From contig NZ_LAJB01000007.1 in NCBI RefSeq assembly GCF_000970685.1, forward strand, positions 1 to 64,000: DNA of 64,000 nucleotides, read 5' to 3'. The position numbers were made by a program, and so were the translations under genes. Within the stretch, counting starts at the first letter, position 1. Every line of letters starts with the position of its first letter. The stretch comes from Domibacillus indicus (GTDB lineage Bacteria; Bacillota; Bacilli; Bacillales; Domibacillaceae). Under the pieces are notes generated by a model. The model ran no database searches. It saw only the letters and a program-made list of their open reading frames with translations, and was not told the DNA's origin. Positions 30,812 through 60,047 of the stretch are shown one piece after another.

Positions 30812-30852
30812 ATTTCTTGTTTAAAATTTTATTAAGCGGAGATACTGGTAGT

Positions 30853-30922
30853 GTGAGTTTAATACTCAACTCCTTACAGTCGAAGTCTTCTTTCAGCCAG
30901 AGTCTCCTCTGGCTGTTTTTTT
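30853..30922 (+). ncRNA. Candidate small RNA unit A (CUCCU type)
   Basis: Promoter-like GTTTA (30819-30823), 14 nt, GGAGATACTG (30838-30847). The expected RNA starts with hairpin GAGT-TTAAT-ACTC, then ACTCCTTACAGTCGAAGTC, then terminator CAGCCAGAG..CTCTGGCTG plus T7. Closely similar to unit B at 59975 and, in the core, to unit E at 39394. ACTCCT could pair with Shine-Dalgarno sequences. Confidence 0.55.
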
Positions 30923-30969
30923 ATGCTTGCATTTCTTCATTGCAGCTTCCAGCCGAAAATTCTTTTATT

Positions 30970-31539
30970 TCAGCCAGTTCTCTTTCGGAACCCAGCCCAG
31001 CAAGCGACAACTAGTCCTCCTGCTGTACCCGTCAGCAAATCCGTCATCGTATCCTTGTTTTTGTCTTCTACCATAAAGCCTGTAACAGCCCCGATAAATT
31101 CAGCGCTTTCCCATAATATGTTAATAGTCATTGCAAATGAAAAAACGAATAAAAAAATCATCCATCGTGAAATTCCTTTTTCCAGGGCATTTGGCAGAAG
31201 AATATTATAAATAGCTATGCCAATAAAGGCCGTATAAGCACTGCCGAAAAAATGAAGCACTGTATCCCACCAGCGGAAACGATTATAAAAGCCGAGAATG
31301 GCACCCAGAATGAATGTACAAAATAAGAAAAGGTAGTAACCGATGATCAAAGAAAGGCTGAACCGAATTTTTCTAAGAAATAAAAGAAAAACAGGCAGTA
31401 CACTGAACAAAATTCTGCCCAGTGCATCCGGCCAGGTGGCAGAAAAGTCTCCCTTTGTGATGTCTTGGATAAAAACGGCGGCCATTACGACTACAAACGT
31501 TATGCTTAAAAATAAAATCATTTTCTTTTTCAAATGCAT
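30970..31539 (-). CDS. DUF2238/VanZ-like membrane protein
   Basis: A 189-residue protein with six spans. Seen: RWWDTVLHFFGSAYTAF in a loop and ILWESAEF with an acidic residue in a late span, as in the YjdF/DUF2238 inner-membrane family. The start is taken as the ATG at 31539, which overlaps the stop of a leader ORF (TGATG); it has no ribosome binding site of its own. Function unknown. Confidence 0.65.
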   Translation of the reverse strand: MHLKKKMILFLSITFVVVMAAVFIQDITKGDFSATWPDALGRILFSVLPVFLLFLRKIRFSLSLIIGYYLFLFCTFILGAILGFYNRFRWWDTVLHFFGSAYTAFIGIAIYNILLPNALEKGISRWMIFLFVFSFAMTINILWESAEFIGAVTGFMVEDKNKDTMTDLLTGTAGGLVVACWAGFRKRTG

Positions 31540-31601
31540 CACCATCTAAAACAGTTTTTTATTAGCATATCCAATAAAAACTGTTTCAACTCAATAATCA
31601 A
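31539..31601 (-). CDS. Possible leader peptide coupled to DUF2238 gene
   Basis: TTG start 4 nt after AAAGGAGG, 20 codons, stop overlapping the next ATG. The RNA also holds an inverted repeat of AAACAGTTTTT(T)ATT (31550-31588). Looks like translational coupling or a leader-controlled gene. Confidence 0.4.
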   Translation of the reverse strand: MIIELKQFLLDMLIKNCFRW

Positions 31602-31646
31602 AGTGCCTCCTTTCTCTTTATTCCCCTTTGAATGTATAAAGAAAGA

Positions 31647-31805
31647 TCAAGAAGGTTCATCTCTGCGTTTGCGAGGCGCTATCTCATAGCTGGTGATTAC
31701 GACCCTGGTGCCCGTATGGCGAGACAGAATTTCTTCCATAACTGCCTTCACTTTTTCTGCTTTCTCCGGCGTGAAATCAACAGGCTCGAGGATAGGCTTC
31801 TTCAT
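31647..31805 (-). CDS. Small unknown protein
   Basis: A 52-residue protein: MKKPILEPVDFTPEKAEKVK then a basic tail PRKRRDEPS. ATG at 31805 with AAAGGCGG upstream. No family recognised. Confidence 0.5.
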   Translation of the reverse strand: MKKPILEPVDFTPEKAEKVKAVMEEILSRHTGTRVVITSYEIAPRKRRDEPS

Positions 31806-32056
31806 TACATGACCGCCTTTCATAGCTGTAATGCTTATAACTATGCCTCTCTTTATGCCGGTATGGCTGGACAAACATTTTAAATTGAATTAGTCCTTTT
31901 TCGCCAGATTACCTTATAAAATAAAAGGAGGTCTATCTTGATAAGAAATTCCTGACAGCGCATGTATGTTCACTGCCTGTTAATTGACGCAACTGTATTA
32001 CTCGCTTTCTTGAATTGCGCTTGAAAGCAATTAACTCTTGATACCGAGGTGAAAAA

Positions 32057-33526
32057 ATGAAAGCTGCTCTTTATATACGTGTATCAACGGAGGAACAGGC
32101 GCAGCATGGCTATTCACTCGCTGCCCAGGAAGAAAAGCTGAGTGCCTATGCACTCTCCCAGGACTGGGAAATTGTCCAGGTTTATCGGGATGAAGGCCGC
32201 TCAGCGAAGGATTTAAAACGCGAACAACTGCAGCGGATGCTGACGGATTTAAAAGACGGACTGTTTGACGTCGTTCTTGTCTATCGTCTCGATCGTCTCA
32301 CCCGCTCCGTTCTGGATCTGTACGAGCTGCTTAATATTTTTGATCAGTATGGCGTGAAATTCAAGTCTGCCACAGAGGTTTATGACACCACTACAGCGAT
32401 CGGGCGCTTGTTTATCACACTTGTAGCCGCCCTGGCACAATGGGAACGCGAGAACCTCGCTGAGCGTGTTAAATTCGGTATGCTGAAGAAAGCCAGCCTG
32501 GGTGAATGGATGGGCGGAATTGTTCCGTATGGATATACGTTAGAGGGCAGCTCTTTTCGCATCATTAAGCATGAAGCAGATATTGTCAAAAAAATTTTTA
32601 AAATGGCAAAATCAAAAGGTATGGATGCCATTTCCAAATCACTTAATGCAGAGAACTGCCGCACGAGAAAAGGCTTTAATTGGAGCGGATTCACTGTACA
32701 CTATATTTTAAGGAATCCAGTCTACACAGGGCGCTTCCGCTATAATGAAGGCAGCGGAAAAACGGACCGGCCGCTGGAGGATCAGCGTATTTTTGAAAGT
32801 GAGCTGATTGATCCTATTGTCACGGAAAACGAATTCTGGGAGGTACAAAAAATATTGGACGCGCGAAAAAGTAAGAAAGGAAAAGCATTGACCGGCAAAT
32901 ATTATTTCACCTCTGTTCTCCTATGTGGAAAGTGCGGCGCCTCTATGACTGGAACTGCTTATAAGTATAAAGAAAAAAATGGAGAGACAAGGGTTACGAA
33001 GTATTATCGGTGTTCCAATAAAATAAAGTCCGGGGACTGCGCCATGCCCCAGATACAAGAAAGCCGGTTAGCAGAAGAAATAATACGGACTTTCAACGAT
33101 TTAACCGAAAACTGGTTTTCAAAACCGCAGGCCAAACAAATTGCGGATTCAAACGCTGACAGAAAAGCTGCTGCCAGGGAACTTGATAACGTGAAAAAAA
33201 CGATCAATAAATACAAATTAATGTTCATCAATGATTTGATTGACATGGAAGAGTTAAATAATCAGCTGGCTGCTTTGAAAATAAAGCAGAAAAATCTGGA
33301 AGAAGGATGGAGCAGGGTGCCTGATCAGGACGATACAGCCAAACTATCTCCTGGGGAATTAGAAAACATGATTTATCATTTTAAAGCTGTCTGGGATATT
33401 GCAGATGATGAAGAACGAAAAAAATTAATCACGTCCATTTTTTCGGAAATTGTCATTGATGCCAGAGTGAAATCTCCCTGTGGACCGGGCACATCCAAGC
33501 ATTTTTGGATCGTTAGTGCGAAATAG
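32057..33526 (+). CDS. Large serine recombinase
   Basis: A 489-residue site-specific recombinase: N-terminal resolvase domain (YIRVSTEEQ with Ser nucleophile, YRLDRLTRS), recombinase domain (YTLEGSSFRI.. and the NWSGFTVHYILRNPVYTGRF segment), zinc ribbon CGKCGASM..CSNK..C, and a C-terminal coiled coil. This type integrates phages and mobile elements. No other phage gene adjoins it. Its 3' end abuts a truncated IDEAL-domain gene, marking one edge of the inserted DNA. Confidence 0.92.
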   Translation: MKAALYIRVSTEEQAQHGYSLAAQEEKLSAYALSQDWEIVQVYRDEGRSAKDLKREQLQRMLTDLKDGLFDVVLVYRLDRLTRSVLDLYELLNIFDQYGVKFKSATEVYDTTTAIGRLFITLVAALAQWERENLAERVKFGMLKKASLGEWMGGIVPYGYTLEGSSFRIIKHEADIVKKIFKMAKSKGMDAISKSLNAENCRTRKGFNWSGFTVHYILRNPVYTGRFRYNEGSGKTDRPLEDQRIFESELIDPIVTENEFWEVQKILDARKSKKGKALTGKYYFTSVLLCGKCGASMTGTAYKYKEKNGETRVTKYYRCSNKIKSGDCAMPQIQESRLAEEIIRTFNDLTENWFSKPQAKQIADSNADRKAAARELDNVKKTINKYKLMFINDLIDMEELNNQLAALKIKQKNLEEGWSRVPDQDDTAKLSPGELENMIYHFKAVWDIADDEERKKLITSIFSEIVIDARVKSPCGPGTSKHFWIVSAK

Positions 33527-33796
33527 CTGAATCAGCAGGGTATACCTGCTTTTACCCCTGATAGGGAGGTCAATCATGGCGTCCCAATCTTCTTTGGCCA
33601 GGGTCAGTCCCACCGCCATTACTTTTTTTGTTTCTACAACCTCTAGAACTGGTTTAATGGCTGTTATCCGTTTGTCCAAATACTTAGACACTTGTACAAT
33701 GTACACTTCATTCCGCAGTCTGGAAAAGTCGCGGATAAATCCAATAATCCGTTCCTGCCCATTTGCAATAATAACCCAGTCACCGGGTTTGAGCAT
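33425..33796 (-). pseudogene. IDEAL-domain gene truncated by recombinase element
   Basis: The first about 80 residues are clearly a real protein (KPGDWVIIANGQERIIGF; ..KEDWDAMIDL, the start of an IDEAL motif), with GGGGGG upstream of ATG 33796. At about 33560 the IDEAL motif breaks off and the frame runs on antisense into the recombinase gene. The complete relative at 38746-39063 shows the missing end (IDLALATRDKQWFEQL). The natural C-terminus was not found to the left. Confidence 0.65.
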
Positions 33797-33916
33797 ATGT
33801 CCCCCCTCCTCGCCGCTACTGCTATTAATATTAGATGCAATTAGCCGGCTGAATGCGCTTCTTTTTAACAGTAATTTTGCTTCTTCTGCTTGAATTTCTT
33901 TATTGATTCCTTATAA

Positions 33917-33958
33917 AAAATACTATCTCCACCAGGGACTTCTCAGCGGAGACAGCAT
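33917..33958 (-). terminator. Imperfect terminator of YjcQ-like gene
   Basis: Imperfect stem GCTGTCTCC/GGAGATAGT followed on the minus strand by six T. Confidence 0.55.
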
Positions 33959-33987
33959 TTTTCCAATAAAAAGAGTATGGTGTTTGA

Positions 33988-34242
33988 TTATTCTTCTGGC
34001 CCGGTATTTTTTTCAAGAAACTCATAACCGGATACTGTAACTGAACATTCATCCTCAATTGTATAGCCAGTCACTTCTTTTGTTTCGTCTGCACGGTTTA
34101 CAGTAATTCCTGTAGCAAGATTATTGGAATCAAGAAAGTGAAGAGCTTCTCCAAACAATTCAAGGCTGTCATTTCCCTGTTCAGGCTTGCTGCCATTTTT
34201 GATTTCAGTCAATACTTGTAATGCCCGTTTTTCTATTTGCAT
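33988..34242 (-). CDS. YjcQ-like winged-helix protein
   Basis: An 84-residue protein with the YjcQ pattern: an N-terminal helix ending ..VLTEIKNGSKP, a helix EALHFLDSNNLATGI and a C-terminal VTVSGYEFLEKN resembling (T/S)xxGxxYLEEN. Function unknown. Start follows a weak GGAAG site. Confidence 0.5.
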   Translation of the reverse strand: MQIEKRALQVLTEIKNGSKPEQGNDSLELFGEALHFLDSNNLATGITVNRADETKEVTGYTIEDECSVTVSGYEFLEKNTGPEE

Positions 34243-34463
34243 AACTGGTCACTTCCTTTTTCTTTTTCAGTATCATCCTTTTCCCTTTTTGCTGTAATGT
34301 ATGCTTTTTTTTATAAATTTTGAATTTTACATATAGTGTTTTAATTCAAATAAATTTTTGCTTATTAAGCATCACTGTTTTAAAAAGAGTGTTTAATAAG
34401 TGACGAAATGGCAGAATTTGCGGTATTTACTTACAGAGCAAATATACTCCTGGCTGCTTTACG

Positions 34464-35054
34464 TCAGGCTGCCAGTTCAAACATCGGATAAACACTGGAA
34501 TCAGCTGCAATATGCTCAGGGTAAATAAAACCTCCTTCATCACGAGGAAACGAGATGCCTATTTGCTGGAAGCACTGGTCGACAAATTCTGAACAAATAT
34601 ATTGGTCGTTATCCTCGTGCCGGCCAATCCCAAGCTTAATCCGGGTCAAAATTTTAATTAATTCCGCCTGGTTATAATCCTGATTGAGCAAGTCGATTGC
34701 TTTGCCCATCATATTTTTTAAAAGGGACCGGTCAAAAGAAGAAGATATCAGCTGTTCATGACGGGCAATATAAAGCGAGCCTTTATACTTTTTTCCGGTG
34801 TTTTCGTAATTTGATACGTATTGCAGAAGCGGAATAATCCGGACACCGGTACCTTCCACGCTCTCGAATACAAGAGTCCGGTTATGCCATTTAAACAAAA
34901 AAGCAACATGGCTTATAAAAGAATTAGAGGCTTTTTTAATGAATTCACTGATTAAATACGTACCGCTGCAAAGTAAAAGATCCCCTGTTTGAATACTTTT
35001 CACTGCCTGTTCATAATGAACGGGATTAATTTCCTGGAATTTTTTTGTCCCCAT
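34464..35054 (-). CDS. YiiX/NlpC-P60-like cysteine hydrolase
   Basis: A 196-residue protein of the permuted papain type: TGDLLLCSG near the start, ISHVAFLFKW carrying the catalytic His, and QYICSEFVDQCF carrying the catalytic Cys. Such enzymes hydrolyse peptide, amide or lipid substrates at the cell envelope. Start at 35054 follows a run of eight G. No signal peptide, so it is cytoplasmic or spore-associated. Confidence 0.75.
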   Translation of the reverse strand: MGTKKFQEINPVHYEQAVKSIQTGDLLLCSGTYLISEFIKKASNSFISHVAFLFKWHNRTLVFESVEGTGVRIIPLLQYVSNYENTGKKYKGSLYIARHEQLISSSFDRSLLKNMMGKAIDLLNQDYNQAELIKILTRIKLGIGRHEDNDQYICSEFVDQCFQQIGISFPRDEGGFIYPEHIAADSSVYPMFELAA

Positions 35055-35288
35055 TTCTCTTCCCCCCCCTGAACACCTCATTACACAATATGCTTTCTTT
35101 GCTGAGTCGTTATTAACAAAGCCTGCCTGTCCAGGAAGTGGTTTTTTTCTCAGCATACTCTGGCATACAGAAGACGGGAAAGCGAATTCAAGCGCAGAAG
35201 AAAGTGCCGGGGATATGGGCAGGGTCTTTTCTTATTGCATTTTTTATTCTCTTATCATTATTGGAACAGTCATTGATTTTAGTTCTCA

Positions 35289-35321
35289 TTAAAAAAACCA
35301 GAGCGGGAATGCTCTGGTTTT
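35289..35321 (-). terminator. Terminator of cotJABC
   Basis: Stem AACCAGAGC/GCTCTGGTT with T7 on the minus strand, directly after cotJC. Confidence 0.85.
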
Positions 35322-35326
35322 GTTCA

Positions 35327-35896
35327 TTAAAAAACTTTTTTCCGGTTCTGATCCTCTTTTAACATCTCCACTGCTTCACGAAAGCGCTGTGAATGAACAA
35401 CTTCCCGTTCTCTTAAAAAACGAAGTGAATCGTTTAAATCCGGGTCGTCTGACAGGTCAATAATCCATTGATAAGTCGCTCTTGCTTTTTCTTCCGCTGC
35501 AATATCTTCATATAAATCAGCAATTGGATCTCCTTTGGCCTGTATATAAGCAGCTGTAAATGGCACCCCTGCTGCATTATTATAAAAAAGGGCACTGTCA
35601 TGGCTGACATAATGCTCGGCCAATCCCGCATCGCGGAGCTGCTGGGGAGTCGCGTCTTTTGTCAGCTTATAAATCATCGTTGCAATCATTTCCAGATGGG
35701 CAAATTCTTCTGTGGCAATATCGTTTAAAAGCCCAATTACCTTATCCGGAATGGTGTACCGCTGATTCATATACCGAAGAGCCGCCGCCAGCTCTCCGTC
35801 TGCCCCTCCGTACTGCTCCATTAAATACTTTGCCAGCGTTGGATTACACGTACTGACTTTGACTGGATATTGCAGTTTTTTCTCGTAGATCCACAT
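35327..35896 (-). CDS. cotJC: Spore coat protein CotJC, manganese-catalase-like
   Basis: A 189-residue ferritin-like protein. Metal ligands are visible in GELAAALRY, EEFAHLEMIATM and the later EEKARATYQW and EREVVHSQRF helices. CotJC is a coat component related to Mn catalase. Third gene of cotJABC, 24 nt after cotJB. Confidence 0.93.
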   Translation of the reverse strand: MWIYEKKLQYPVKVSTCNPTLAKYLMEQYGGADGELAAALRYMNQRYTIPDKVIGLLNDIATEEFAHLEMIATMIYKLTKDATPQQLRDAGLAEHYVSHDSALFYNNAAGVPFTAAYIQAKGDPIADLYEDIAAEEKARATYQWIIDLSDDPDLNDSLRFLREREVVHSQRFREAVEMLKEDQNRKKVF

Positions 35897-35920
35897 TCCA
35901 TTTCCACCTTTTCTGCTTTT

Positions 35921-36184
35921 TTAGACCTGCCAGGGCCACGGAGACTCGCCCCATGTCCAAACAGTCTGCGAAGGGTTTGGGCTCCCGTGCTGCAATGGAC
36001 CAAATTGAACTTCAAATGCCTGCTTTAACTGCCTGCTGTGACGGGCAAATTGATTGTGTTGTTCAATTGCCTGCCGGTCAGTCGGGTGTGTGTTTAAGTA
36101 CAGTACTAATTCTAATGCAACGAAATCAGCTGCCTGAATTTCTTCCAGCCTCGTGTAGTACTCCTTAGGAAGAGGTTTAACCAT
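35921..36184 (-). CDS. cotJB: Spore coat protein CotJB
   Basis: An 87-residue protein with the CotJB block YYTRLEEIQAADFVALELVLYLNTHP (given in parts: YYTRLEEIQAADF, ELVLYLNTHP) and the C-terminal WTWGESPWPW. Start at 36184 after AAAGGAGCGGGG; overlaps the end of cotJA by 8 nt. Confidence 0.93.
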   Translation of the reverse strand: MVKPLPKEYYTRLEEIQAADFVALELVLYLNTHPTDRQAIEQHNQFARHSRQLKQAFEVQFGPLQHGSPNPSQTVWTWGESPWPWQV

Positions 36185-36425
36185 GAGTTTTCCCCGCTCC
36201 TTTACGGTAAGGATTATCATAATAATCATAAAGTACTTTCCAGAGTGTCCCTTTCCTTAAAGCATCAGCAGGAGAAAACTGCGGCAGACCCGGCGGCTGG
36301 AAGCCTAAATATAAATTAGGCGGTGTACTGTAATATTTCGTTCCGATAGGTGGACATGGATCAAAAGGGCTGCGAGGCGGGACATACGACTTAACATGAC
36401 TAAAAATCTGCATCTGGCTATTCAC
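36177..36425 (-). CDS. cotJA: Spore coat protein CotJA
   Basis: An 82-residue Pro/Tyr-rich coat protein with YVPPRSPFDPCPPIG and the ALRKGTLW..YDYYDNPY end typical of CotJA. GTG start after GGAGGGG. First gene of the mother-cell coat operon cotJABC. Confidence 0.92.
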   Translation of the reverse strand: MNSQMQIFSHVKSYVPPRSPFDPCPPIGTKYYSTPPNLYLGFQPPGLPQFSPADALRKGTLWKVLYDYYDNPYRKGAGKTHG

Positions 36426-36453
36426 ATTTTCCCCTCCTATCCATCATCCATTT

Positions 36454-36482
36454 TATATATGTTTTGCTGCTGAATATTATGA
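36454..36482 (-). promoter_or_regulatory. Sigma-E-like promoter of cotJ operon
   Basis: Minus strand TCATAAT, 14 nt, CATATATA; resembles the mother-cell sigma-E consensus (KATATT..CATACAHT). In B. subtilis cotJ is sigma-E controlled. Confidence 0.55.
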
Positions 36483-36567
36483 ACCGGGTCCCGGGCTGTT
36501 TAATACGAAAAATAGGTTTTTTCAAGCCGGTTTTGTGGGTATGGCATGCAATAAAGGAGCGATTTTT

Positions 36568-36798
36568 ATGAATATTGATTATCAGCGTCTTTATGAAGAC
36601 TATTTGCTTTCAAAAGAAGAAAAAACCAGACAGCTTGAAATTGATGAATTTGAAGATGAAAAGCAGCACATGGCCAACTGGCTGCAAAAAGTCCGGGGAA
36701 TGACCGTAGAACAGGCCGAAGCCGTAATCGAGCATTCTCCTATCAGAAGCCAGATTGAGCAAGAATACAAAAAAAGAAGCGACTCATCAAGCCGTTAA
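36568..36798 (+). CDS. Small acidic helical protein, unknown
   Basis: A 76-residue, strongly charged helical protein (ILE/Glu/Lys-rich, LSKEEKTRQLEIDEFEDE). ATG at 36568 with AAAGGAG. A GTTTT..GGGTAT pair about 30 nt upstream resembles sigma-B promoters but with long spacing. No family recognised. Confidence 0.6.
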   Translation: MNIDYQRLYEDYLLSKEEKTRQLEIDEFEDEKQHMANWLQKVRGMTVEQAEAVIEHSPIRSQIEQEYKKRSDSSSR

Positions 36799-36905
36799 AA
36801 GAAAAACAGCGATAAGCTGAAACAACCGCCATAAATGTTGATACAAATTGCGGATTCCTTCATTTTCTGTTTCGCTTAACCACTGTCTTTGTTTTCTCAG
36901 CAGCT

Positions 36906-36937
36906 AAAAAAGGAGCCTTTTAAAAGGCTCCTTTTTT
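36906..36937. terminator. Bidirectional terminator
   Basis: Stem AAAAAAGGAGCC/GGCTCCTTTTTT between converging genes. Confidence 0.9.
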
Positions 36938-36960
36938 AGCTGCTTTGTCAGTTGTCTGGA

Positions 36961-37815
36961 TTATTTATCTTTGAGTAAACGGATATCCTCAAATGCCTGA
37001 TGTAAGTTTGCTTTTACGTTTAAATTTTCAACGCTTAAACCAAGCGTGATCATTGTCTGTGCGACTTCAGGGCGTATCCCAGTAATGATTGTCTCCACAC
37101 CGAGAAGCGATAAAGCGTCAATGACTTTAAAAAGCTGGTCTGCTACCATAGTGTCTACAATCTGCACACCGGATACATCAAAGATAAGATGAGTCAGTTT
37201 TAAATTTGTAGCTTGCTGCAAGGTTTTTTCCATCAGCAAACGCGACCGTTCTGTATCAATGTTTCCGATCAGCGGAAGAACCCCGACTCCTTTCAACAGT
37301 GGAACGACAGGCACCGACAGTTCCAGGAAAGCATTTCTTGCATTTTCCAGCGTTTTTTGATGCATTCGAACATATTCCAAACTAAAGTAATAAACTGCGT
37401 GATCTAATAATGGGTCAAATACCGAAATAAGTTTGAAGATAGAAGCGGCAGACAGATTTCTTGCAATAGCCTCTTTCTCCATAGCCTTCCAAATATATGT
37501 ACGGTAATATCTTGTTTCTTTTAAGGCTTCATCCAAAGGGGCACCAAGATCATAAAAATAAGCCCCTGTCTCTTTCCCCCATTCCTCTATTTCGGGGAAT
37601 ATCTTTTGCGAGCCGGATTGTTCCGTTATCCCTGCCCCAAGCAGCTCAATAAATTGAATGCGCATGTCCATTATAGTGGGTTCCAGCCTTTGAAGTTCCT
37701 TTTTTTGCTGTTCGGTTAACATCACGCCAGACATTCTTTTCTCATGAATTAATTGGGCAATTTCCCGTTTCTTTTCAATGATTATATCACCTAATAGCTG
37801 CAATTCATTGACCAT
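36961..37815 (-). CDS. RsbR-type stressosome protein 1 (STAS domain)
   Basis: A 284-residue protein: a helical non-heme-globin-like N-domain (1-150), linker helix, and a C-terminal STAS domain. The segments LPLIGNIDTERSR and DVSGVQIVDTMVADQ contain Thr residues at the positions that RsbT phosphorylates in RsbR paralogs; GIRPEVAQTMITLGL closes the domain. RsbR proteins build the stressosome that controls sigma-B. rsbS, rsbT and sigB are not in this window. Start after GGAGGAGG. Confidence 0.88.
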   Translation of the reverse strand: MVNELQLLGDIIIEKKREIAQLIHEKRMSGVMLTEQQKKELQRLEPTIMDMRIQFIELLGAGITEQSGSQKIFPEIEEWGKETGAYFYDLGAPLDEALKETRYYRTYIWKAMEKEAIARNLSAASIFKLISVFDPLLDHAVYYFSLEYVRMHQKTLENARNAFLELSVPVVPLLKGVGVLPLIGNIDTERSRLLMEKTLQQATNLKLTHLIFDVSGVQIVDTMVADQLFKVIDALSLLGVETIITGIRPEVAQTMITLGLSVENLNVKANLHQAFEDIRLLKDK

Positions 37816-38237: not shown

Positions 38238-38278
38238 GAAAAAGCAGCTGTTCGCTGCTTCACTATTATTCTATCTTT

Positions 38279-38745: not shown

Positions 38746-39063
38746 CTAATCTGTTTCTTCGCAGCCTGGACGTTTTTGTGTCAGCTGTTCAAACCACTGT
38801 TTATCTCTTGTGGCAAGCGCTAAATCAATCAAAATGGTTTTATCCTGATACTGGTCCAGCAGCCTGACAGCGGAGCGGAGACGATTTGATTCGTAAATGC
38901 CCTGTGTCGGCCTGCGCCATTCGATGATTCCACCAATTATCCAGCCTACTTTTGTAAATTCAACGCAATCTCCAGGACAGCTATAATTATTAATATTGCT
39001 TATATAGCCAATAGCTGTGGCATCACCAATTTTAATGGTTTTCCATTCGCCCATTTTCAGCAT
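38746..39063 (-). CDS. IDEAL-domain protein
   Basis: A 105-residue protein: an SH3-like N-domain (GEWKTIKIGDATAIGYI) and a C-terminal IDEAL motif (IDLALATRDKQWFEQL). IDEAL motifs occur in small Firmicutes proteins and mediate binding, for example in ComK-degradation adaptors. It resembles the truncated gene at 33425-33796. Start after GGAAGG. Confidence 0.75.
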   Translation of the reverse strand: MLKMGEWKTIKIGDATAIGYISNINNYSCPGDCVEFTKVGWIIGGIIEWRRPTQGIYESNRLRSAVRLLDQYQDKTILIDLALATRDKQWFEQLTQKRPGCEETD

Positions 39064-39393
39064 ACTAACCTTCCTTTCTGCTTAATTTTTTTGAACTGGC
39101 CAACACTTCTTATCCCAAAAACAAAAATTGTTTATGAGTCTTTTACTATGCCTGAAAAGAACCTGGCTTAATTTTTATAAAAGCGTTCTAGTTCCATCTT
39201 TCGAAAATTTCTGCTTGTTTCAGTGTATGTTATAAAAGACTGTAATAGACGTTTCTTTCTATTCCGTTTATATTCGAATTTTACATATTTTATATTATTC
39301 ACTTATTATTCTTTCTTTTATTTTAGAATTGCGTTTTTAAAATGCCTGGTTCTTTTTTGGTATATTTTTTTACATACAGGTTAAGCTGATAGA

Positions 39394-39463
39394 GTCGGGA
39401 TATCTATTCCCTCTACTCCTATTTCAGCCAGTCTTTTAAACCGGGGAAAATTCCCGGTTTTTT
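39394..39463 (+). ncRNA. Candidate small RNA unit E (CUCCU type)
   Basis: GTATA (39360-39364), 14 nt, GGTTAAGCTG (39379-39388) as promoter candidate; RNA with CTCTACTCCTATTTCAGCCAG core like units A and B; terminator ACCGGG/CCCGGT plus T6. Lies 20-90 nt ahead of the promoter of the next small gene. Confidence 0.5.
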
Positions 39464-39484
39464 ATTTTTCTTTCAGCACAGTAT

Positions 39485-43813: not shown

Positions 43814-43905
43814 AATATTTCTTCTTTTTGCTGTTGGGAAACAGCATCGGCTTGCTGGAATTAATTTCAGTCATTTTTTTAAAAATTGTTTAGTGATTCA
43901 AATTC

Positions 43906-43939
43906 AAAAAATCAGCCAGTTTGTTTCTGGCTGATTTTT
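43906..43939 (+). terminator. Terminator of membrane peptide 3
   Basis: Stem AAAAATCAGCCAG/CTGGCTGATTTTT with a 7-nt loop; the stretch from here to 44192 shows no gene. Confidence 0.85.
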
Positions 43940-44192
43940 CATTTTATCGTTTTTTGGAATGATATTCCTCATGGCTTATTATGCAGTGATTTTCAATCCT
44001 TATTTTTCCTTAATAAAAAATATTTTTAAAATCATATATTTTTTTAAATTCATGTTATGATTTTTACGAAGTGAATTTTTATTAAAAAGCTAAAGTAATA
44101 AAGCTTTTAATAGCAGCCAGATTTTCAAAAAATTTATATTCGGAAATCTCTTTTCGTTTTTTCCTCATTTTAACTGAAAAAGGTGAACACTT

Positions 44193-52274: not shown

Positions 52275-52279
52275 CTTTT

Positions 52280-52666: not shown

Positions 52667-52867
52667 TTTGTCATCTCCTTCGCCAGCCGGTTAAAGCTGC
52701 CCTGAATTCTGCTTTATTATCTCCTTTTTCGTCACCTTATTATGCTTCACACTAAGCCAAAAGCTCCTGTTCTTCTCCAGCTTTTATACGAAACCATTTT
52801 AAGCCGGGCATTTTCTTCCGCTTTATTTCTTTTGTATAAACTCTTCTGCTGCGGGTAATATATTAGT

Positions 52868-52941
52868 GGTGAGGTGGTCTTTTCCTCCCAAGCTTGTATT
52901 CCCATTACCCAGTGCAGCCAGGACCCCTCTGGCTGTTTTTT
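52868..52941 (+). ncRNA. Candidate small RNA unit C
   Basis: GTATA (52834-52838), 14 nt, GGGTAATATA (52853-52862). RNA contains GGTGAGGTGG/ CCTCCCAAGC and ATTCCCATTACCC, ending in CAGCCAGG..CTCTGGCTG plus T6, the same terminator sequence as units A and B. No ORF. Confidence 0.5.
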
Positions 52942-53162
52942 GCTTTATAAATCCCTTCTTTGCCCTTTTGCAGCTGCCTGAAATATCGATTTGTGATTTA
53001 AAATATCATATTCGTTACGGACAGGTTATCTATTTCAGCAGCAAATAGAGCAATGCTGAAATTTGGCATTGGTATGTTTTTAAGTTTCAGCTTCTCGCGC
53101 TGCTTATTTTTATTCTCGGCAAAAAAAACAGCACCCATAGATGCTTGTTATCTTTTTTTGCA

Positions 53163-53390
53163 TTATATGTTTTTCGGTTCATTTTTAATGCCGGCCGGGC
53201 TTATAAATGAGATTTTTGTAACTAACTCTAAATTAAACGCCTGGTTATTTTCATCAATAAGCCATTTTTCTTCATGGTCGGTAAACATTCTCAAAACTAC
53301 CTCCTCCTTGCCAGGCGGACCTTTAACTTCAATGATTTCACTATTTTCTTTATCAAATTGAAGTTTGACTTTATAGATGATTTTATCCAT
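53163..53390 (-). CDS. Small unknown beta-rich protein
   Basis: 75 residues: KIIYKVKLQFDKENSEIIEV strand pattern, likely a single beta-sheet domain. ATG after AAAGGAGGAG. No family recognised. Confidence 0.6.
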   Translation of the reverse strand: MDKIIYKVKLQFDKENSEIIEVKGPPGKEEVVLRMFTDHEEKWLIDENNQAFNLELVTKISFISPAGIKNEPKNI

Positions 53391-53527
53391 TAAGCACTCC
53401 TCCTTTTATCTTGCATTTCGACAAAAGGATTTGTTTTCCTTCCCCTCACTCACCTTTAAAATCTCTTTCCTGTCCAATAGGCTGAAAAGGCTTTTCAACC
53501 CACTAAAAAAAGCATCACTGTGGATGC

Positions 53528-53674
53528 TTACTCAATTACTGTTTTGCATTTTGGACAGTAATGCTCCCAATAAGAATCGGATCCGTTTTCTGCTGCCCTC
53601 TCGTCCTTGTCTGTTTCCTCAAACTGGCCTTCCCATTTACAGCTCGGACATTTAAAAATTTCTAAATCAGCCAT
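53528..53674 (-). CDS. Zinc-ribbon mini protein
   Basis: 48 residues: FKCPSCKWEG near the N-terminus and HYCPKCKTVIE at the C-terminus, two CPxC knuckles of one zinc ribbon. ATG at 53674 after GGGGTGA. The longer frame upstream lacks a start signal. Confidence 0.7.
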   Translation of the reverse strand: MADLEIFKCPSCKWEGQFEETDKDERAAENGSDSYWEHYCPKCKTVIE

Positions 53675-53839
53675 GAGCTTCACCCCTGTGCTATTTATGT
53701 GCAAACAAGTAAGTTTAATTTTGTTTCTGTAAAGTTTATAAAAATTATACCCTTTCATAAATATCCTAAGCATGCCAGGAAAACATTTTTTGTTCTCCAA
53801 GGATTTGTGCTGCTATAGCAGCAATCATATATGCTTAAA

Positions 53840-54061
53840 TCAATGCCGTATCCCTTTTGTTGTATATTGCCGTTTCTGGCCATTTGCAAAACGGACATCC
53901 ACTGCGTTTTTTTGCGGGTTCGATGTTACTGCCACTACACTTCCAAGCCCGTATTGCCCGCGCTCTTCACCTTTGAGCAATCCAAGGTGTTTGTTATGTG
54001 CCAGGATAAATAACTCCCGTTCGGCATCGCTTAAATGTTCATAACCTTCAATAGGCTTCAT
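53840..54061 (-). CDS. Small unknown protein
   Basis: 73 residues. N-half helical (SDAERELFILAHNKHLGLL), C-half beta (GLGSVVAVTSNPQKNAVDV) like a small SH3/KOW fold. ATG at 54061 after GGAGGAGG. Confidence 0.6.
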   Translation of the reverse strand: MKPIEGYEHLSDAERELFILAHNKHLGLLKGEERGQYGLGSVVAVTSNPQKNAVDVRFANGQKRQYTTKGIRH

Positions 54062-54360
54062 GCTGTTTTCCTCCTCCTGCTCGTACATTTGTGTCAACTA
54101 GGCCGGCAGTTTTTTATACACTCCATAGCATTGGTTTTCCCAAAAGTAACGATTAATATAAGTGGTTTCACAGCAGTTTTATTTTGCACATAGTGTCTTT
54201 TTAATAAACTTTGCAAAGAAGCAGCAATGAATGGAGAATTTGTTTCTAAGCAAAGAAAACAGCACCTCCCGGGATGCTGTTTATAAAAAAGGAAAGCTGC
54301 TTTATTACATTTTATGAGTAAGAAGCTTATCATCGGTACTGTTAACTGAAGCATCCAGTG

Positions 54361-55002
54361 TTATCGGGGCTTTTCAATTTTCATTTCAAAATAGTGAATG
54401 TCTTTTAAAGCTTTGCCGATTAAGCACAGTACACTTTCTTTATGATCTTTGTTGTTCGCGAAATCCAGATGATTTACACCAAGCAGAACCTTTGGGGAAT
54501 GGTGATAATTTTCATACCAGGCATCATATCTCTCATTCAGCCGCTCCCAATAATTTATATCCACTTCAGATTCAAATCCTCGTCTGCGGCGGTCGATCCG
54601 CTCTTTTGCTGTTTCTGTATCACACTGAAGATAGATCAGCAGATCCGGTGCTTTTGTGGTTGCCACAATAGCTGCAAGAAGTTTTTTATATGTCCGATAC
54701 TCTTCCGGTGCCATGCTTCCATCTTCACTTAAAAGCTCTGCAAATATCTCGTCACCAAAAATAGACCGGTCGAGTATACCGTTTCTTTGTCCAGAAACTT
54801 GTTTAATCATTTCCCAGCGCTCTGTGGCAAAATGAATTTGCGTGGTAAAAGACCATCTTGAACGGTCTCGATAAAAACGATTCAGCAATTTTTCTGTATC
54901 TGGATTGCCCAGCTCTTCAAAAACTGGAATGCGAAAATGATCGCTGATTAAACTGGAGAGTGTTGATTTCCCTGCTCCTACCGTTCCCTCAATAAGTATC
55001 AT
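54361..55002 (-). CDS. Deoxynucleoside kinase (dGK/dCK family)
   Basis: A 213-residue kinase: P-loop EGTVGAGKST, the DRS motif in ILDRSIFGDEIF, and the Arg-rich LID in ERIDRRRRG. It phosphorylates deoxynucleosides for salvage; purine or pyrimidine preference cannot be read here. Start at 55002 after AAAGGAG. Stand-alone gene. Confidence 0.9.
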   Translation of the reverse strand: MILIEGTVGAGKSTLSSLISDHFRIPVFEELGNPDTEKLLNRFYRDRSRWSFTTQIHFATERWEMIKQVSGQRNGILDRSIFGDEIFAELLSEDGSMAPEEYRTYKKLLAAIVATTKAPDLLIYLQCDTETAKERIDRRRRGFESEVDINYWERLNERYDAWYENYHHSPKVLLGVNHLDFANNKDHKESVLCLIGKALKDIHYFEMKIEKPR

Positions 55003-55364
55003 GAGGTCTTCTCCTTTATATTTCTTTTTATTTCGGCAGTGTATACCAATCCTGGATAGCATCGCTTTTAGCGAGCTCTTCTAATTTGATTGTGAATCTT
55101 AACCCATCATTTTATACAAAAAAAGACTTCGCTTTTTTGCTTTTCCATTTTTCGGTCTCCCTTCTTCAATATGCCTGGAACAACTTAGTAAGAGACCCGG
55201 AAGCTTTCACGTGTAAACTTTCGTTATTTGTCATTGTAAATATACCCCTTTCCCGCTGTTTTAAATCTGCCGCCAGGTTATCGGGCACCCTTTTCACAGT
55301 TAAAAGCCTGAGATATAATTCCCCTTATTTTTTGTTTCACGATTCTATACTCCAGGCATAAACA
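55003..55364. other. Gene-free stretch
   Basis: Between divergent genes; no supported ORF or repeat seen apart from the promoter at its right end. Confidence 0.4.
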
Positions 55365-55393
55365 TTTCAATTTCAAGATAAATATTCTATAAT
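55365..55393 (+). promoter_or_regulatory. Promoter of Spo0E paralog 1
   Basis: TTTCAA, 17 nt, TATAAT; conserved almost base for base in front of the second paralog at 59595. Confidence 0.7.
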
Positions 55394-55430
55394 TACCCAT
55401 ATATGTTTATTGATATACAGGAGGAGTACT

Positions 55431-55598
55431 ATGATTTACGCCCAGGGAGCCTTTTGTGACTTACTTTCCCGCATTAATAACCTCAGGCATCTTATGGTTG
55501 CTGCTGGCTTACAGTATGGCCTTACCAGTCCTGAAACATTACGGTACAGCGAACAGCTGGATGAGCTTATTCTTCAATATCAATTTCAAAACAAATAA
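55431..55598 (+). CDS. Spo0E-family phosphatase, paralog 1
   Basis: 55 residues; helix 1 FCDLLSRINNLRHLM, helix 2 with the family motif YSEQLDELI. Spo0E-type proteins dephosphorylate Spo0A~P and delay sporulation. ATG after CAGGAGGAG. Lies 300 nt before a KinB-like kinase; its near-copy at 59661 lies on the other side. Confidence 0.82.
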   Translation: MIYAQGAFCDLLSRINNLRHLMVAAGLQYGLTSPETLRYSEQLDELILQYQFQNK

Positions 55599-55657
55599 AT
55601 ATTATGAAAATCAAACCTTTTTGTTTGTAATTTTGGAAAGCGGCTATTTGCTTTATG

Positions 55658-55715
55658 GTGTAAATCTCGAAACCAGGTCTTTTTTCCTTTGCCGGGTCTT
55701 CTCCCGGCTTTTTTA
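55658..55715 (+). ncRNA. Candidate small RNA unit H
   Basis: GTTTG (55624-55628), 14 nt, GGCTATTTGC; about 60 nt later terminator GCCGGG/CCCGGC plus T6. It could instead be read-through processing of the Spo0E transcript, whose stop is 60 nt upstream. Confidence 0.35.
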
Positions 55716-55898
55716 TTTGCTTGCTCAAATCATCCTTCCAGCAATAAAATGCAAAACAAAAATCTTATATATAAATTAAATTTATATACAAAATTTATAC
55801 AGTTATCGTTATTATATAAATTAAGATGCTTCCATCAGGAAACACATAGATGCTGAATTTTTAAAATTGAATAAAAGAATGAGACTGGAGCTGCTGCG

Positions 55899-57197
55899 GT
55901 GAATGTTTTATTTGATAATATCGAAACCACCCTGCTAAATATTCTTTTTATTTACTTTAGTTTGACTATGTATTACCAATTTCTTAAAAAGAAAACAAAT
56001 AGATTGGCAGATACTTTAGTCATTATTTTAGTGTGTGGACTTTCGATAATTTTTTTTCAGACCTTTCCTATTATAACTATAAAGGATATTCCCATTGACT
56101 TTCGCCAGATTCCTTTCATTGCGGGGGCATTGTACGGAGGGCGTCGGGTTGCTGTTATATTAACCGGGATTTTACTGGCCTATCGATTTTTTGCAGGCCC
56201 TGACTTTATTACAGCCCTCTGTGTTTATTCACTGCTGCTTCTTTTATTATGTATCGTTATTCCTTTTTACAAAAGTACAGTGAATCTGAGAAAAAAAGCA
56301 TGGATTTCTCTATGTATTTCTGTATTTTTTGTTTTACTTACCACAGCCTTGAATGCACTTTTTCTTCCGCTGGCCATTACCGGAGAAATTCTTCTGTATA
56401 CTTTTGCTTTTTCAACCATTCAAGCGGCAGGAGTGCTGTTTTGTATACTTTTTATTGAAAAAGCAAAAAAGGATTTTATTCTTTCTAACGAAATCGCAAA
56501 GCTGGAAAAGCTAAAAACGGTCAGTACAATAGCCGCGAGTATATCACATGAGATTCGCAATCCTTTAACAGTTACAAAGGGCTTTCTTCAGCTGTTACGT
56601 GACTCTGGCCTCTCAGAGCAGGATAAAGAACATTATATTGTGATTTCACTCGAAGCATTAGAAAAAGCAGAATCCATTATTACTGATTATCTAACCTTTG
56701 CCAAGCCTTCGCTGGAAAATGTGAAGATGCTTGATCTGTTCAAGGAACTAACCAGCATTAAAAATTTTCTGGAACCCTATGCCGCTCTCAATAATGTGAA
56801 AATTGAAATGAGCCTGGAGAAAAACCTGTATGCAGCCGGGGAAAAAGATAAATTTAATCAATGTTTTATAAATATCGCAAAAAATGGAATTGAAGCTATG
56901 CCACAAGGTGGAAATTTAAAAATTAAGCTGAAACGCCTGAAAGAAATTGCTGTAATAACTGTAGAGGATACTGGAATCGGCATGAATAAGGAACAGCTTG
57001 AACGGTTAGGCAGCCCATTTTTTACAACAAAGGATATTGGAACCGGGCTCGGTACAATGGTGGTCTACAGCGTGGTGAAATCTATGGGTGGAGAAATCCA
57101 TATTGAAAGCTGTCCGGGCAAAGGAACAAGCTTTGCCGTCTCTCTTCCAGCCGCTGAAGGAACAGCAGCAAACCACTCTTTCATTATGCGTCTTTAA
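55899..57197 (+). CDS. KinB-like sporulation sensor histidine kinase
   Basis: A 432-residue kinase: six hydrophobic segments of the 5TMR-LYT type (residues 1-200), then HisKA with the phospho-His in SISHEIRNPLT, N box NIAKNGIEAMPQGG, G1 EDTGIGM, F box PFFTTK and G2 GTGLGT. KinB and KinC-type kinases of this design feed the Spo0F-Spo0B-Spo0A phosphorelay. GTG start after CTGGAG. Flanked by two Spo0E genes that would act against it. Confidence 0.88.
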   Translation: MNVLFDNIETTLLNILFIYFSLTMYYQFLKKKTNRLADTLVIILVCGLSIIFFQTFPIITIKDIPIDFRQIPFIAGALYGGRRVAVILTGILLAYRFFAGPDFITALCVYSLLLLLLCIVIPFYKSTVNLRKKAWISLCISVFFVLLTTALNALFLPLAITGEILLYTFAFSTIQAAGVLFCILFIEKAKKDFILSNEIAKLEKLKTVSTIAASISHEIRNPLTVTKGFLQLLRDSGLSEQDKEHYIVISLEALEKAESIITDYLTFAKPSLENVKMLDLFKELTSIKNFLEPYAALNNVKIEMSLEKNLYAAGEKDKFNQCFINIAKNGIEAMPQGGNLKIKLKRLKEIAVITVEDTGIGMNKEQLERLGSPFFTTKDIGTGLGTMVVYSVVKSMGGEIHIESCPGKGTSFAVSLPAAEGTAANHSFIMRL

Positions 57198-57302
57198 AAA
57201 GATAAAAAAAGTTTTTGATATTTTCTTTCGAAAGTATAATTCGGACATATACGGCAAGGCATGTATTGTTTCAAAAAATTTAATGTTTGGAGATGAGTTT
57301 AT

Positions 57303-57818
57303 ATTCAAAAGATAAGTAAAGCTGTTATATATTTGTCTGTGGTGCTTCTTGGTGTCATCGCTTGCTTGTTACTTATCGTGAACCAGTTTGTAACAAACCA
57401 TTCTACAGACGAAGGTCAATCAGTTACAGCTGAACCATCGGAAACTGTACCGAATGAGGAAAAGCAGTCCGCTGCCGCAGAACCGAAAACGGCGGTATCC
57501 GATAAAGAAAACAGCCAGGACAGCCCAATGGAAATGGGAAATAAAAAGGACGTTGAAGAAAAAACGGAAATCGGGAACAATCAAGAAGGATATATGGCTG
57601 ATTGGTTTCAACAGACCAATTCACAAGAAAATGAGAAAACGGCTGCTTCTTCTAAAGGCGAGGTGACTGACCAGGAGAAATCAGATGAGTTGAACAGCGA
57701 AGATAAAGCGGCGGAAACAACTATGGAGCAATCAAATGAAGAAGCTGGTAAGCAGCAATCAATCATTTCGCCTGTTCCCCCAGTGGAACCAGAACAGCCT
57801 TCTTTTTCTGAAAAATAG
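57303..57818 (+). CDS. Single-span membrane protein with acidic extracellular tail
   Basis: One N-terminal span (VVLLGVIACLLLIVNQF in outline), then about 135 residues rich in Glu, Ser, Gln and Thr, of low complexity and probably disordered, ending in a Pro-rich VPPVEPEQP. Start problem: TTG at 57333 has no ribosome binding site; GGAGATGAG (57289-57297) points to an ATT codon at 57303, which also restores a basic N-terminus. Function unknown. Confidence 0.6.
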   Translation: MQKISKAVIYLSVVLLGVIACLLLIVNQFVTNHSTDEGQSVTAEPSETVPNEEKQSAAAEPKTAVSDKENSQDSPMEMGNKKDVEEKTEIGNNQEGYMADWFQQTNSQENEKTAASSKGEVTDQEKSDELNSEDKAAETTMEQSNEEAGKQQSIISPVPPVEPEQPSFSEK

Positions 57819-58069
57819 CTCCTGGTTGGCTAAAAATAAAAAAATACGGCAGAGCCATTCCTGCTGGCGATACAAATTGTGTAAATGGTAATTTTTACAA
57901 TGCATTTTATCAAGAAGCTAATGTTTTGCAAACTATTTTTGGGTAAATATTAATATAGTCTATCTTTTTAATAAAAAGTATCGCAGTGCATTTTTTCTTT
58001 ATCTGCTGTATCAACAACTTGATAATAAAGCGCTGCAGATTATATAAATTGCAGGAAGAAGGTGTTTTT

Positions 58070-58576
58070 ATGGGTTTTTGGAAAGGAGCTGCTTATATTG
58101 CCGGTGGAGCTGCCGCAGCTGCGGCAGCCCCCCTGGCTGCCAGTGCTATTGCGGCTTCCGCAGCGGGAATTGCTATTGCTGGGACTGCGGCGGCCGTGAC
58201 TAGTTCAGCAGCCGCGGCCGGAACCATTGCCGCTGCGGCGGCCACAGCGGCAGGTGCTGCCGCGGCCGGGATCACTACTGCTGCTGGAACAGCTATCGCG
58301 GGAGCAGCTACAGCGGCAGGTGCTGCTGGTGCAGCAGGTGCTGTCACTTCGGCTGCCGGGACCATATCGGGAGCTGCTGCTGCGGCAGGAACAGCAGCAG
58401 CGAGTGCAGCAGGCGTTCTGGGAACCGCTGCGGGTGCTGTTGGAGCTGATATGATTATGAGTACAATTTCTCCCAGAGGAATCAGAAAAAAAGGGTTCAA
58501 AACAGCAGCACGCGGCGTAAAAGAAATATACAAATCCCGGGAAAATACTCGAGTCGGTAATGAAAATCAAAGTTAA
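58070..58576 (+). CDS. Alanine/glycine-rich hydrophobic low-complexity protein
   Basis: 168 residues; residues about 12-135 consist almost wholly of Ala, Gly, Thr, Ser, Ile and Val in short A-rich runs with many small-xxx-small spacings, followed by a basic tail (RGIRKKGFKTAARGVKEIYKS). ATG 58070 after AGGAAGAAGG. Local GC is far above the flanks. Could be glycine-zipper-like membrane or assembly-prone spore protein; nothing recognised. Confidence 0.6.
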   Translation: MGFWKGAAYIAGGAAAAAAAPLAASAIAASAAGIAIAGTAAAVTSSAAAAGTIAAAAATAAGAAAAGITTAAGTAIAGAATAAGAAGAAGAVTSAAGTISGAAAAAGTAAASAAGVLGTAAGAVGADMIMSTISPRGIRKKGFKTAARGVKEIYKSRENTRVGNENQS

Positions 58577-58585
58577 GCAGAAAAG

Positions 58586-58622
58586 AAAAGCCGTGCCAGT
58601 ACATTAACTGATACGGCTTTTC
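58586..58622 (+). terminator. Terminator of Ala/Gly-rich gene
   Basis: Stem AAAAGCCGT/ACGGCTTTT with a 16-nt loop. Confidence 0.65.
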
Positions 58623-58707
58623 CATTGCTTAAGCTGCACTTTTATGAATCTGGATAAAGAGGTTTTTTCATCCATTGCATATCAGCAGTTATGCGCATTG
58701 CTGCTCG

Positions 58708-58953
58708 TTATCTTTCCTGTATAAACTTTACCACGTCATATCCGCACTTATTACAAACCATTAAATGAGGACAAATCTGGTCTTTTGCTGTATTGGGATA
58801 TCCATCACCCATCTTTACCGTTTCTTCATCATTATAATGGCCATAAGGATCTAAAAAATCCGACACCTTGCCCGAGTCGTCTAATCGAGAATTACATGCC
58901 GGACAATATATTTCTAATACTTTTAATGAATTGCATAAAGGACACATTGCCAT
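58708..58953 (-). CDS. Zinc-ribbon protein
   Basis: 81 residues with four CxxC knuckles: CPLC, CPAC, then a lone C-P-H and CNKC near the C-terminus (MVCNKCGYDVV). The start at 58953 has AAAGGAG. Function unknown. Confidence 0.7.
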   Translation of the reverse strand: MAMCPLCNSLKVLEIYCPACNSRLDDSGKVSDFLDPYGHYNDEETVKMGDGYPNTAKDQICPHLMVCNKCGYDVVKFIQER

Positions 58954-59324
58954 ACGTTTCACTCCTTTCAGCTTTAAAATTTATTATCTATTATTTTCTG
59001 GATACTATGTAACATCATAAAAAGTTAAATCGTTCTGTTTTTTATACAGTTCAAGTTGAGGAAAGAATCTAAGATCGAATGCTCCATGACAGATGCTTAG
59101 TCAAATACGGTAAAACTTTTCCCTCGACAATAAGCCACAGCAGTATAGGTCCTTTCTCTTCAGCGGCAGCAGCCGCCTGGCACATTATCTAAAATGCCTT
59201 CACGCTCAATAGCAGTTCGGCCCTTAAACCTTTTACTATATCCTTCTTCAGCTAAGCATTTTCTTTCTTTAAAATAAAATTGATAAAAGGACATCGTTTT
59301 CTGTTTTATTTCTTATAAAACAAA
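58954..59324. other. Gene-free stretch
   Basis: No supported ORF, repeat or promoter was seen. Confidence 0.35.
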
Positions 59325-59361
59325 AGTTTTAAAAGCTTGTCTATCGGGCATACTTTAAACA

Positions 59362-59433
59362 GGTGCATATTACGACTGCGGTACTTAACCAGATTTTCAA
59401 GACCTCATGGCACCTGTGAGGTCTTCCTTTTAA
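59362..59433 (+). ncRNA. Candidate small RNA unit G
   Basis: GTTTT (about 59325), 15 nt, GGGCATACTT as a promoter candidate, then a terminator AAGACCTCA/TGTGAGGTCTT. A second weak hairpin (CCCAGG/CCTGG plus T5) follows at about 59452-59477. Confidence 0.35.
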
Positions 59434-59594
59434 AATAGAGGTGTGAGAACCCAGGGTTGGTCCTGGCTTTTTAAATTTCTTTTTTCACCTAATCTAATTT
59501 AATCTCCGGTAATCCTTTAGCGTTTTTTCCCTGGACAGTGATTTGCTTCCTGCTCCTTTTTTTGTAAAAAAGCTGCAATTCCTCAAAAAAATCA

Positions 59595-59623
59595 TTTCAA
59601 TTTCGAGATAAACATTCTATAAT
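59595..59623 (+). promoter_or_regulatory. Promoter of Spo0E paralog 2
   Basis: TTTCAA, 17 nt, TATAAT, the same as at 55365. Confidence 0.7.
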
Positions 59624-59660
59624 TTGCCTAATATGTTTATTTGCATACAGGGGGAATACT

Positions 59661-59825
59661 ATGACTTATGCCCAGGATACTTTTTGTGATTTGCTTGATC
59701 GCATTGAGCAGATTCGACAACTTATGATTACTTCTGGCCTGCAGTATGGTCTTAGCAGTCCTGAAACAGTACGATATAGCGAGCAGTTAGATGAGCTGAT
59801 TCTTTGGTATCAGCTTCAGTGCTGA
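59661..59825 (+). CDS. Spo0E-family phosphatase, paralog 2
   Basis: 54 residues, near-identical to the protein at 55431 (shared YAQ..FCDLL, GLQYGL.SPET, RYSEQLDELIL). ATG after CAGGGGGAA. The promoter and leader are duplicated with it, which indicates a recent local duplication around the KinB-like kinase region. Confidence 0.8.
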   Translation: MTYAQDTFCDLLDRIEQIRQLMITSGLQYGLSSPETVRYSEQLDELILWYQLQC

Positions 59826-59974
59826 AGGAAGAGCAGCAAGTAAAAGTTACGTTCCTTTCAGCATTGATGTTTTTTCCGCCCTCTCAAGAAAAAGCCGTAA
59901 ACGTTGAATCTTTAGAAGAATAATGATTCAGTAATTTTTTGTATAAATTTTCATTAGCCGGAGCATACTGATAT

Positions 59975-60047
59975 TGTTAGTTTGAATACCCACTCCTACT
60001 TCAGTCGAAGTCATTCTTCAGCCAGATCCCCCTCTGGCTGTTTTTTT
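59975..60047 (+). ncRNA. Candidate small RNA unit B (CUCCU type)
   Basis: GTATA (59941-59945), 14 nt, GGAGCATACT (59960-59969); RNA core CACTCCTACTTCAGTCGAAGTC; terminator CAGCCAGA..TCTGGCTG plus T7. Similarity to unit A (30853) extends past the terminator (TTGCAGC.TCCAG). Confidence 0.55.

Follow-up and report, generated by a model that had tools for sequence, protein, structure and literature searches.

The stretch of Domibacillus indicus DNA analysed here (contig NZ_LAJB01000007.1, positions 1 to 64,000; 64,000 nt, hereafter the window) contains four short, gene-free units, called A, B, D and E, in each of which a promoter-like element and a brief body are followed by an intrinsic terminator. 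Being sharply bounded, present in many copies, restricted to the genus and equipped with forespore-type promoters, these units are very likely genes for small RNAs (sRNAs). Units of type I (A, E and copies elsewhere) consist of GTATA-N17/18-CATACTR, about 45 nt including AACTCCTA, a CAGYCAG-loop-CTGGCTG hairpin and a T-run. Those of type II (D, and a copy at position 333511 of contig C12) have the promoter and terminator of type I and, between them, a short hairpin whose loop is rich in pyrimidines. Unit B is of a separate type. A typical unit can be described as a GTATA-N17/18-NATAMTR promoter, a G-poor body of some 17-50 nt and an intrinsic terminator, and units that are shorter still occur in other species.

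An earlier note on this DNA had described A, B and E as sharing one plan, in which GTWTA is followed after 14 nt by GG, next by a core reading ACTCCT[T/A]...CAG and last by a strong terminator. This plan was recovered at 30819, 39360 and 59941 (+), the terminator being intrinsic. The promoter-plus-core pattern was found at exactly three places in the window, all on the + strand and corresponding to A, B and E, against a mean of 0.03 and a maximum of 1 in 60 dinucleotide shuffles. The statement that no open reading frame (ORF) fits the units was borne out as well: within A, B, D and E, none longer than 3 codons runs from start to end. The frame passing through A (98 amino acids, TTG-started, 30718-31014, +) is a mechanical open reading frame, and B, D and E are crossed by no frame of 80 amino acids or more.

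A search for more copies with covariance models, which the same note had proposed, did reveal further units in the genome. Two models were used: R1, built from 16 rows, and R2, built from 14, in which the same locus figures twice. In addition to D, copies were located at C30:68103, C30:70548, C12:333511 and C28:9676. When 1.69 Mb of D. indicus sequence was scanned independently with a pattern, eight places were returned, four of them units and four unrelated.

Table 1. Units in the window, with their sequence elements and covariance model scores
Unit	Positions	Strand	Elements	Model score
A (type I)	30819..30923	+	promoter GTTTA-N17-GATACTG; core AACTCCTTACAGTC; terminator CAGCCAGAG...CTCTGGCTG then T-run	R1: 90.1 bits, E 7.9e-14 (A is itself a row of the R1 alignment)
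B (separate type)	39354..39472	+	promoter-like GTATA-N17-TAAGCTG (weak -10); small stem-loop; ACTCCTATTTCAGC; unrelated terminator ACCGGGGAAAATTCCCGGTTTTTT	R1: 28.4 bits only
D (type II)	52834..52943	+	GTATA...TAATATA; short hairpin (GAGG/CCTC), its loop rich in pyrimidines; terminator GCAGCCAGGA CCCC TCTGGCTG then T-run	R2: 83.4 bits, E 6.4e-13 (D is itself a row of the R2 alignment)
E (type I)	59941..60048	+	promoter GTATA-N18-CATACTG; core CCCACTCCTACTTCAGTC; terminator CAGCCAGATCCCCCTCTGGCTG then T-run	R1: 99 bits, E 1.4e-15 (E is itself a row of the R1 alignment)

The similarity over about 120 bp formerly ascribed to A and B is in fact one between A and E (81% over 117 bp). Homology of A and B was rejected, no alignment of the two being found outside the short core. 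E is closer to a third copy, F, situated 8 kb onward and just past the window (88% over 113 bp), than it is to A. Homology between A, E and F starts about 7 bp 5' of the -35 box, or about 20 bp when A is compared with F, and ends at the terminator, and their 500-bp flanks are unrelated except for one 24-bp match. Such sharp boundaries, together with conservation in several species, disfavour the alternative named in the earlier note, degraded remnants of coding or mobile DNA.

Two further hairpins were observed in the window. One, another CAGCCAGGACAGCCTGGCT hairpin accompanied by a T-run, stands immediately upstream of unit A (30788-30813) and may mark where a unit, since decayed, once ended. 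The other (43905-43984) reads CAGCCAG...CTGGCTG and shows terminator-like runs on either strand; it lacks the unit promoter.

Distribution and genomic setting of the units

At E <= 0.01, R1 matched 10 of the 13 Domibacillus genomes, with at least 6 matches in D. indicus and at least 40, 28, 23, 20, 10, 6, 4, 4 and 3 in the others; the best 150 of 1035-2309 candidates per genome were scored, so that the counts are possible underestimates, and the weakest matches may be false. R2 matched nine of the 13, in many cases at the same places. Outside the genus, none of 11 genomes of the same family had an R1 match, and in the whole order, under stricter filters and among the best 13 candidates per genome, 4 of 299 genomes were matched, all Domibacillus. 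A BLAST search with the sequence of E gave matches in 7 of the 61 relatives searched, none of them outside the genus. A DNA pattern run over named genomes gave 17 stretches, of which 16 were from Domibacillus (indicus, sp. PGB-M46, robiginosus, tundrae, iocasae and epiphyticus); the last, in a Bacteroidetes bin, has no T run. No phage or plasmid copies of unit E were found. As judged from these searches, the family is confined to the genus Domibacillus within the collections covered.

Unit B has relatives in five other Domibacillus genomes (G004, G005, G008, G010 and G012), and its 14-nt stretch ACTCCTATTTCAGC is invariant in the six rows from these six genomes. In local alignments with G004 and G010, B and stretches of neighbouring sequence align and the spacer upstream of B does not. 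With G012, no more than 22 bp of B pass.

In some genomes the units form arrays. Contig C104 of G005 carries eleven units, all in the same orientation, at 36.8-45.5 kb, where as little as 3 bp separates two neighbours. This array (L094, G005:C104:30000-49999) adjoins RusA and sigma-70 region 4 genes, as in a prophage, and DUF5677 is also found there. A second G005 array of about five units (L095, G005:C169:48000-62000) lies near genes for sigma-like, HTH and IstB-like ATPase proteins. In both arrays, most of the genes are encoded on the other strand than the units. Three other arrays, L096, L102 and L107, gave no phage-like match among the few neighbours scanned. The window region itself was considered as a prophage and this was unsupported, its genes encoding Mn catalase, STAS, MCP and histidine kinase proteins.

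A reading of the units as leaders of downstream genes was tentatively set aside: the orientation of the ORFs neighbouring the units varies. Genes for small proteins with an IDEAL domain adjoin units in the window (38746-39063, next to B) and in arrays (L094:7670, L096:7921 and, below cut-off, L095:9580), and STAS-domain genes recur near units. Two c-di-GMP-I riboswitches separated by about 600 bp (29709-29796 and 30405-30499, -) are located just upstream of unit A, and one was found near each of two unit arrays in other species (L095:5772-5861 and L107:7973-8059).

Promoter type and comparison with CsfG

For the analysis of promoters and bodies, 78 units were listed, six were dropped for a weak -10 element and the rest were clustered at 80%, which left 54 non-redundant units. 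A strict promoter was present in 37 of them, with a spacer of 18 nt in 30, 17 nt in four and 20 nt in three; by sequence alone, these 37 have the sigmaF/sigmaG type of promoter that characterizes CsfG, a forespore sRNA. Starting from terminators instead, a strict sigmaG-like promoter, defined as GHATR-N17..19-HATNHTR and beginning 26-100 nt upstream, was found for 27 of the 49 terminators of CAGYC type versus 11 of 281 others, and eight of these 11 turned out to be units with variant terminators.

The SASP genes are a standard sigmaG gene set, and in D. indicus their promoters read GCATA-N17-CATACTA, GGATG-N17-CATACTG and, for a weaker one, GCATG-N18-AATAGTA. The csfG genes of four relatives were also read: in two of them the promoter fits the strict form and has a spacer of 17 nt, and the other two deviate. 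This promoter type suggests that the units are transcribed in the forespore. Which of the two sigma factors would be used is not separable for the units, because the sigmaF and sigmaG boxes are similar and are distinguished by the flanking bases, according to a C. difficile study (PMC3789822).

The Rfam family RF00516 ('ylbH') corresponds to the csfG locus, its name being taken from the opposite strand, as stated in PMC3574147. With stricter filters, it was detected over cut-off, with one match each, in all 48 sampled relatives outside the genus and in none of the 13 Domibacillus genomes; a separate scan of the D. indicus genome was negative too. Low-threshold Rfam scans of A, B and E did not list it. 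The families that these scans did list were rejected as far below their cut-offs (ncS54 with E 0.0028, RyhB and others for A; ncS16, Hrs12, anti-hemB and SAM_alpha for B; AgvB for E), and no other Rfam family reached the gathering threshold on the units of the window or of eight further loci. Elsewhere in the window, the BsrF sRNA (RF01411) was found at 21837-21949 (-), with 69 bits.

The csfG site of D. indicus (C30:285527-287165), between a ylbG-side gene and rsmD and near coaD, is occupied by an ORF of 467 amino acids; in this genome the site has no unit, and its one promoter-like match is inside the ORF. The earlier note had left open whether the units are CsfG. With RF00516 undetected in the 13 genus genomes, different loci and the D. 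indicus csfG site taken by an ORF, membership was rejected. The absence of CsfG in the genus could reflect loss, or divergence beyond the reach of the model.

Like csfG, the units are gene-free and combine GTATA and CATACTR boxes, GG being upstream, with CU-rich stretches and an intrinsic terminator. In contrast, the RF00516 model has 122 positions and a single match per relative, whereas the units measure 46-80 nt, give 3-40 model matches per positive genome and lie at other loci. The Bvs196/S547 RNA of Bacillus velezensis is likewise a forespore-specific non-coding RNA, under sigmaF/sigmaG, and differs by its length of 294 nt; the source for this RNA (PMC9147052) reports that no mRNA targets have been identified for CsfG.

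The ACUCCUA core and competing explanations

We consider it probable, though far from certain, that the units are a genus-specific multicopy family of forespore sRNA genes, for whose ACUCCUA motif pairing with ribosome-binding regions of mRNAs is proposed. Directly visible in the sequences are where the units begin and end, their plan of promoter and terminator, their number, their restriction to the genus and the kept core of B. RNA polymerase carrying sigmaF and/or sigmaG, the sigma factors of the forespore, would start at GTATA-N17/18-NATAMTR and produce an RNA of about 46-80 nt. Most of this RNA would be a G-poor body, which carries ACUCCUA in types I and B and, in type II, a hairpin whose loop is rich in pyrimidines; transcription would end at the built-in terminator, the loop of which is often C-rich. 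Duplication and subsequent divergence of paralogues may have generated a set of related RNAs that would be produced at one developmental stage. In a last and less supported step, ACUCCUA would pair with the ribosome-binding regions of chosen mRNAs, so that translation would be silenced or reshaped in the forming spore, much as with LhrC.

The LhrC-type sRNAs (LhrC1-5 of Listeria monocytogenes, as described in PMC4132741) served as working model, shifted to the forespore. As in that class, there are several paralogous copies per genome; the preferential Shine-Dalgarno pairing of the class was not observed when 55 bodies were paired with 96 start sites in a generic test. LhrC responds to envelope stress, which induces it by way of LisRK, whereas the units have forespore-type promoters. 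The units are also more numerous, their core is ACUCCUA and their pairing only putative; no sequence relation is claimed.

ACTCC occurs in 19 of the 54 bodies, versus 4.2 +- 1.9 in 300 shuffles, and the motif has a mean unpaired probability of 0.76, compared with 0.64 for the body. The bodies contain 13% G and 27% C, versus 19% and 22% in the window. Blocking of Shine-Dalgarno sequences, as suggested in the earlier note, is plausible, since ACUCCUA is conserved in a G-poor body. The tests of C-rich motifs and of duplex energies, given below, do not support it.

Several results weigh against the proposed family of pairing forespore sRNAs. For the promoters, 17 of the 54 units lack the strict form, the six units dropped for a weak -10 were B and five other model matches, and A and D are among 22 CAGYC-type terminators without a strict promoter. 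The stretches used in the terminator-first test had been fetched through model matches, hence the test is not independent. Spacers are mostly 18 nt, versus 17 nt at two clear SASP promoters; the earlier note's hint at a forespore sRNA is nevertheless supported by the promoter boxes, which are as in the SASP genes and in csfG of two of four relatives. Three of the 13 genus genomes, one of them 77% complete, had no R1 match.

For the core, the ACTCC enrichment owes partly to common ancestry, and CTCC, TCCC or CCCC, present in 34 of the 54 bodies, is not above shuffles (30.4 +- 2.9). The duplex energies of 55 bodies with 96 D. indicus start sites were not better than those of shuffled bodies (mean z 0.10; five below -1 and five above 1), a test that addresses Shine-Dalgarno pairing in general and not pairing with any single target. 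In the 13 genomes, the 14-nt sequence complementary to the type-I core was found ten times, always within a unit, and the longest perfect complement in 1477 D. indicus start sites is 9-10 nt only. Generic Shine-Dalgarno blocking is thus not shown, because duplex energies are no better than shuffled and the core complement is found only in units. A few specific mRNA targets are possible. The complement of the B/E core was found before ATG at 18 sites, of which five are B relatives on the other strand, versus six for the reversed control. Ranking of duplexes over the 1477 start sites gave several weak, putative targets, one of them the gene for an FtsH-like AAA/M41 protease (C30:372602).

These negative pairing tests would fit forespore RNAs that act through a protein (Hfq-, ProQ- or Csr-like) or as decoys and not by pairing with mRNA. 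The many copies with diverging bodies and the U-rich tails 3' of the terminators also fit such a role. However, the kept ACUCCUA core and the invariant 14-nt stretch of B resemble a pairing seed, and GGAG, GGGA or GGGG occurs in only 2 of the 54 bodies. We regard action through a protein or as decoys as unlikely.

The arrays bring up another explanation, that the units are non-functional repeats, miniature inverted-repeat transposable element (MITE)-like or made of promoter and terminator, which duplicate and in which the promoter is incidental. Copy number is high and variable, tandem arrays exist (G005:C104:42860-45486), and the two G005 arrays lie beside phage-like genes. In addition, when six unit sets of the close species G005, G008 and G012 were compared, the unit was about as conserved as its flanks in four, and more conserved in two (T5 and T6). 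Against non-functional repeats, promoter, core and terminator persist while bodies diverge, positions are common to G005, G008 and G012, and B is conserved as an island, which makes this explanation rather improbable.

A descent of the units from csfG, by extreme divergence, relocation and multiplication, is quite improbable. The similar promoter boxes at csfG in two of four relatives, the CU-rich stretches in CsfG and the failure to detect CsfG in all 13 genus genomes would agree with this. On the other hand, RF00516 is unlisted in the low-threshold scans, 46-80 nt contrast with a model of 122 positions, no CsfG-like hairpins were seen by eye, and the loci differ. Least probable of all is that the promoters serve another sigma factor and the RNAs are not forespore-specific: the assignment was made from sequence, the -10 elements of B and D are weak and the spacers deviate as said, but both boxes match those of the D. 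indicus SASP genes and of csfG in two relatives.

Returning to a family of forespore sRNA genes, it is conceivable, if somewhat doubtful, that CsfG was lost in Domibacillus and that most species instead expanded up to 40 or more such genes, many with an ACUCCUA seed, in a lineage-wide replacement and amplification. A one-for-one replacement is not demonstrated, because three genus genomes have neither CsfG nor R1 units.

We found no literature on Domibacillus small RNAs, and among the papers listed by broader literature searches there was no such large set of paralogous sRNAs timed to development; none of those listed by one of these searches mentions Domibacillus. Whereas the forespore sRNAs CsfG and Bvs196 are single genes, some Domibacillus species have dozens of related, forespore-type RNA genes. 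If these are expressed as predicted, they would form a large set of that kind. Domibacillus, with no detectable CsfG, would permit a direct comparison of the mRNAs with matching seeds and of the changes in the spore upon removal of the set. Should the replacement of CsfG prove true, the genus would offer a natural system for finding the function of CsfG.

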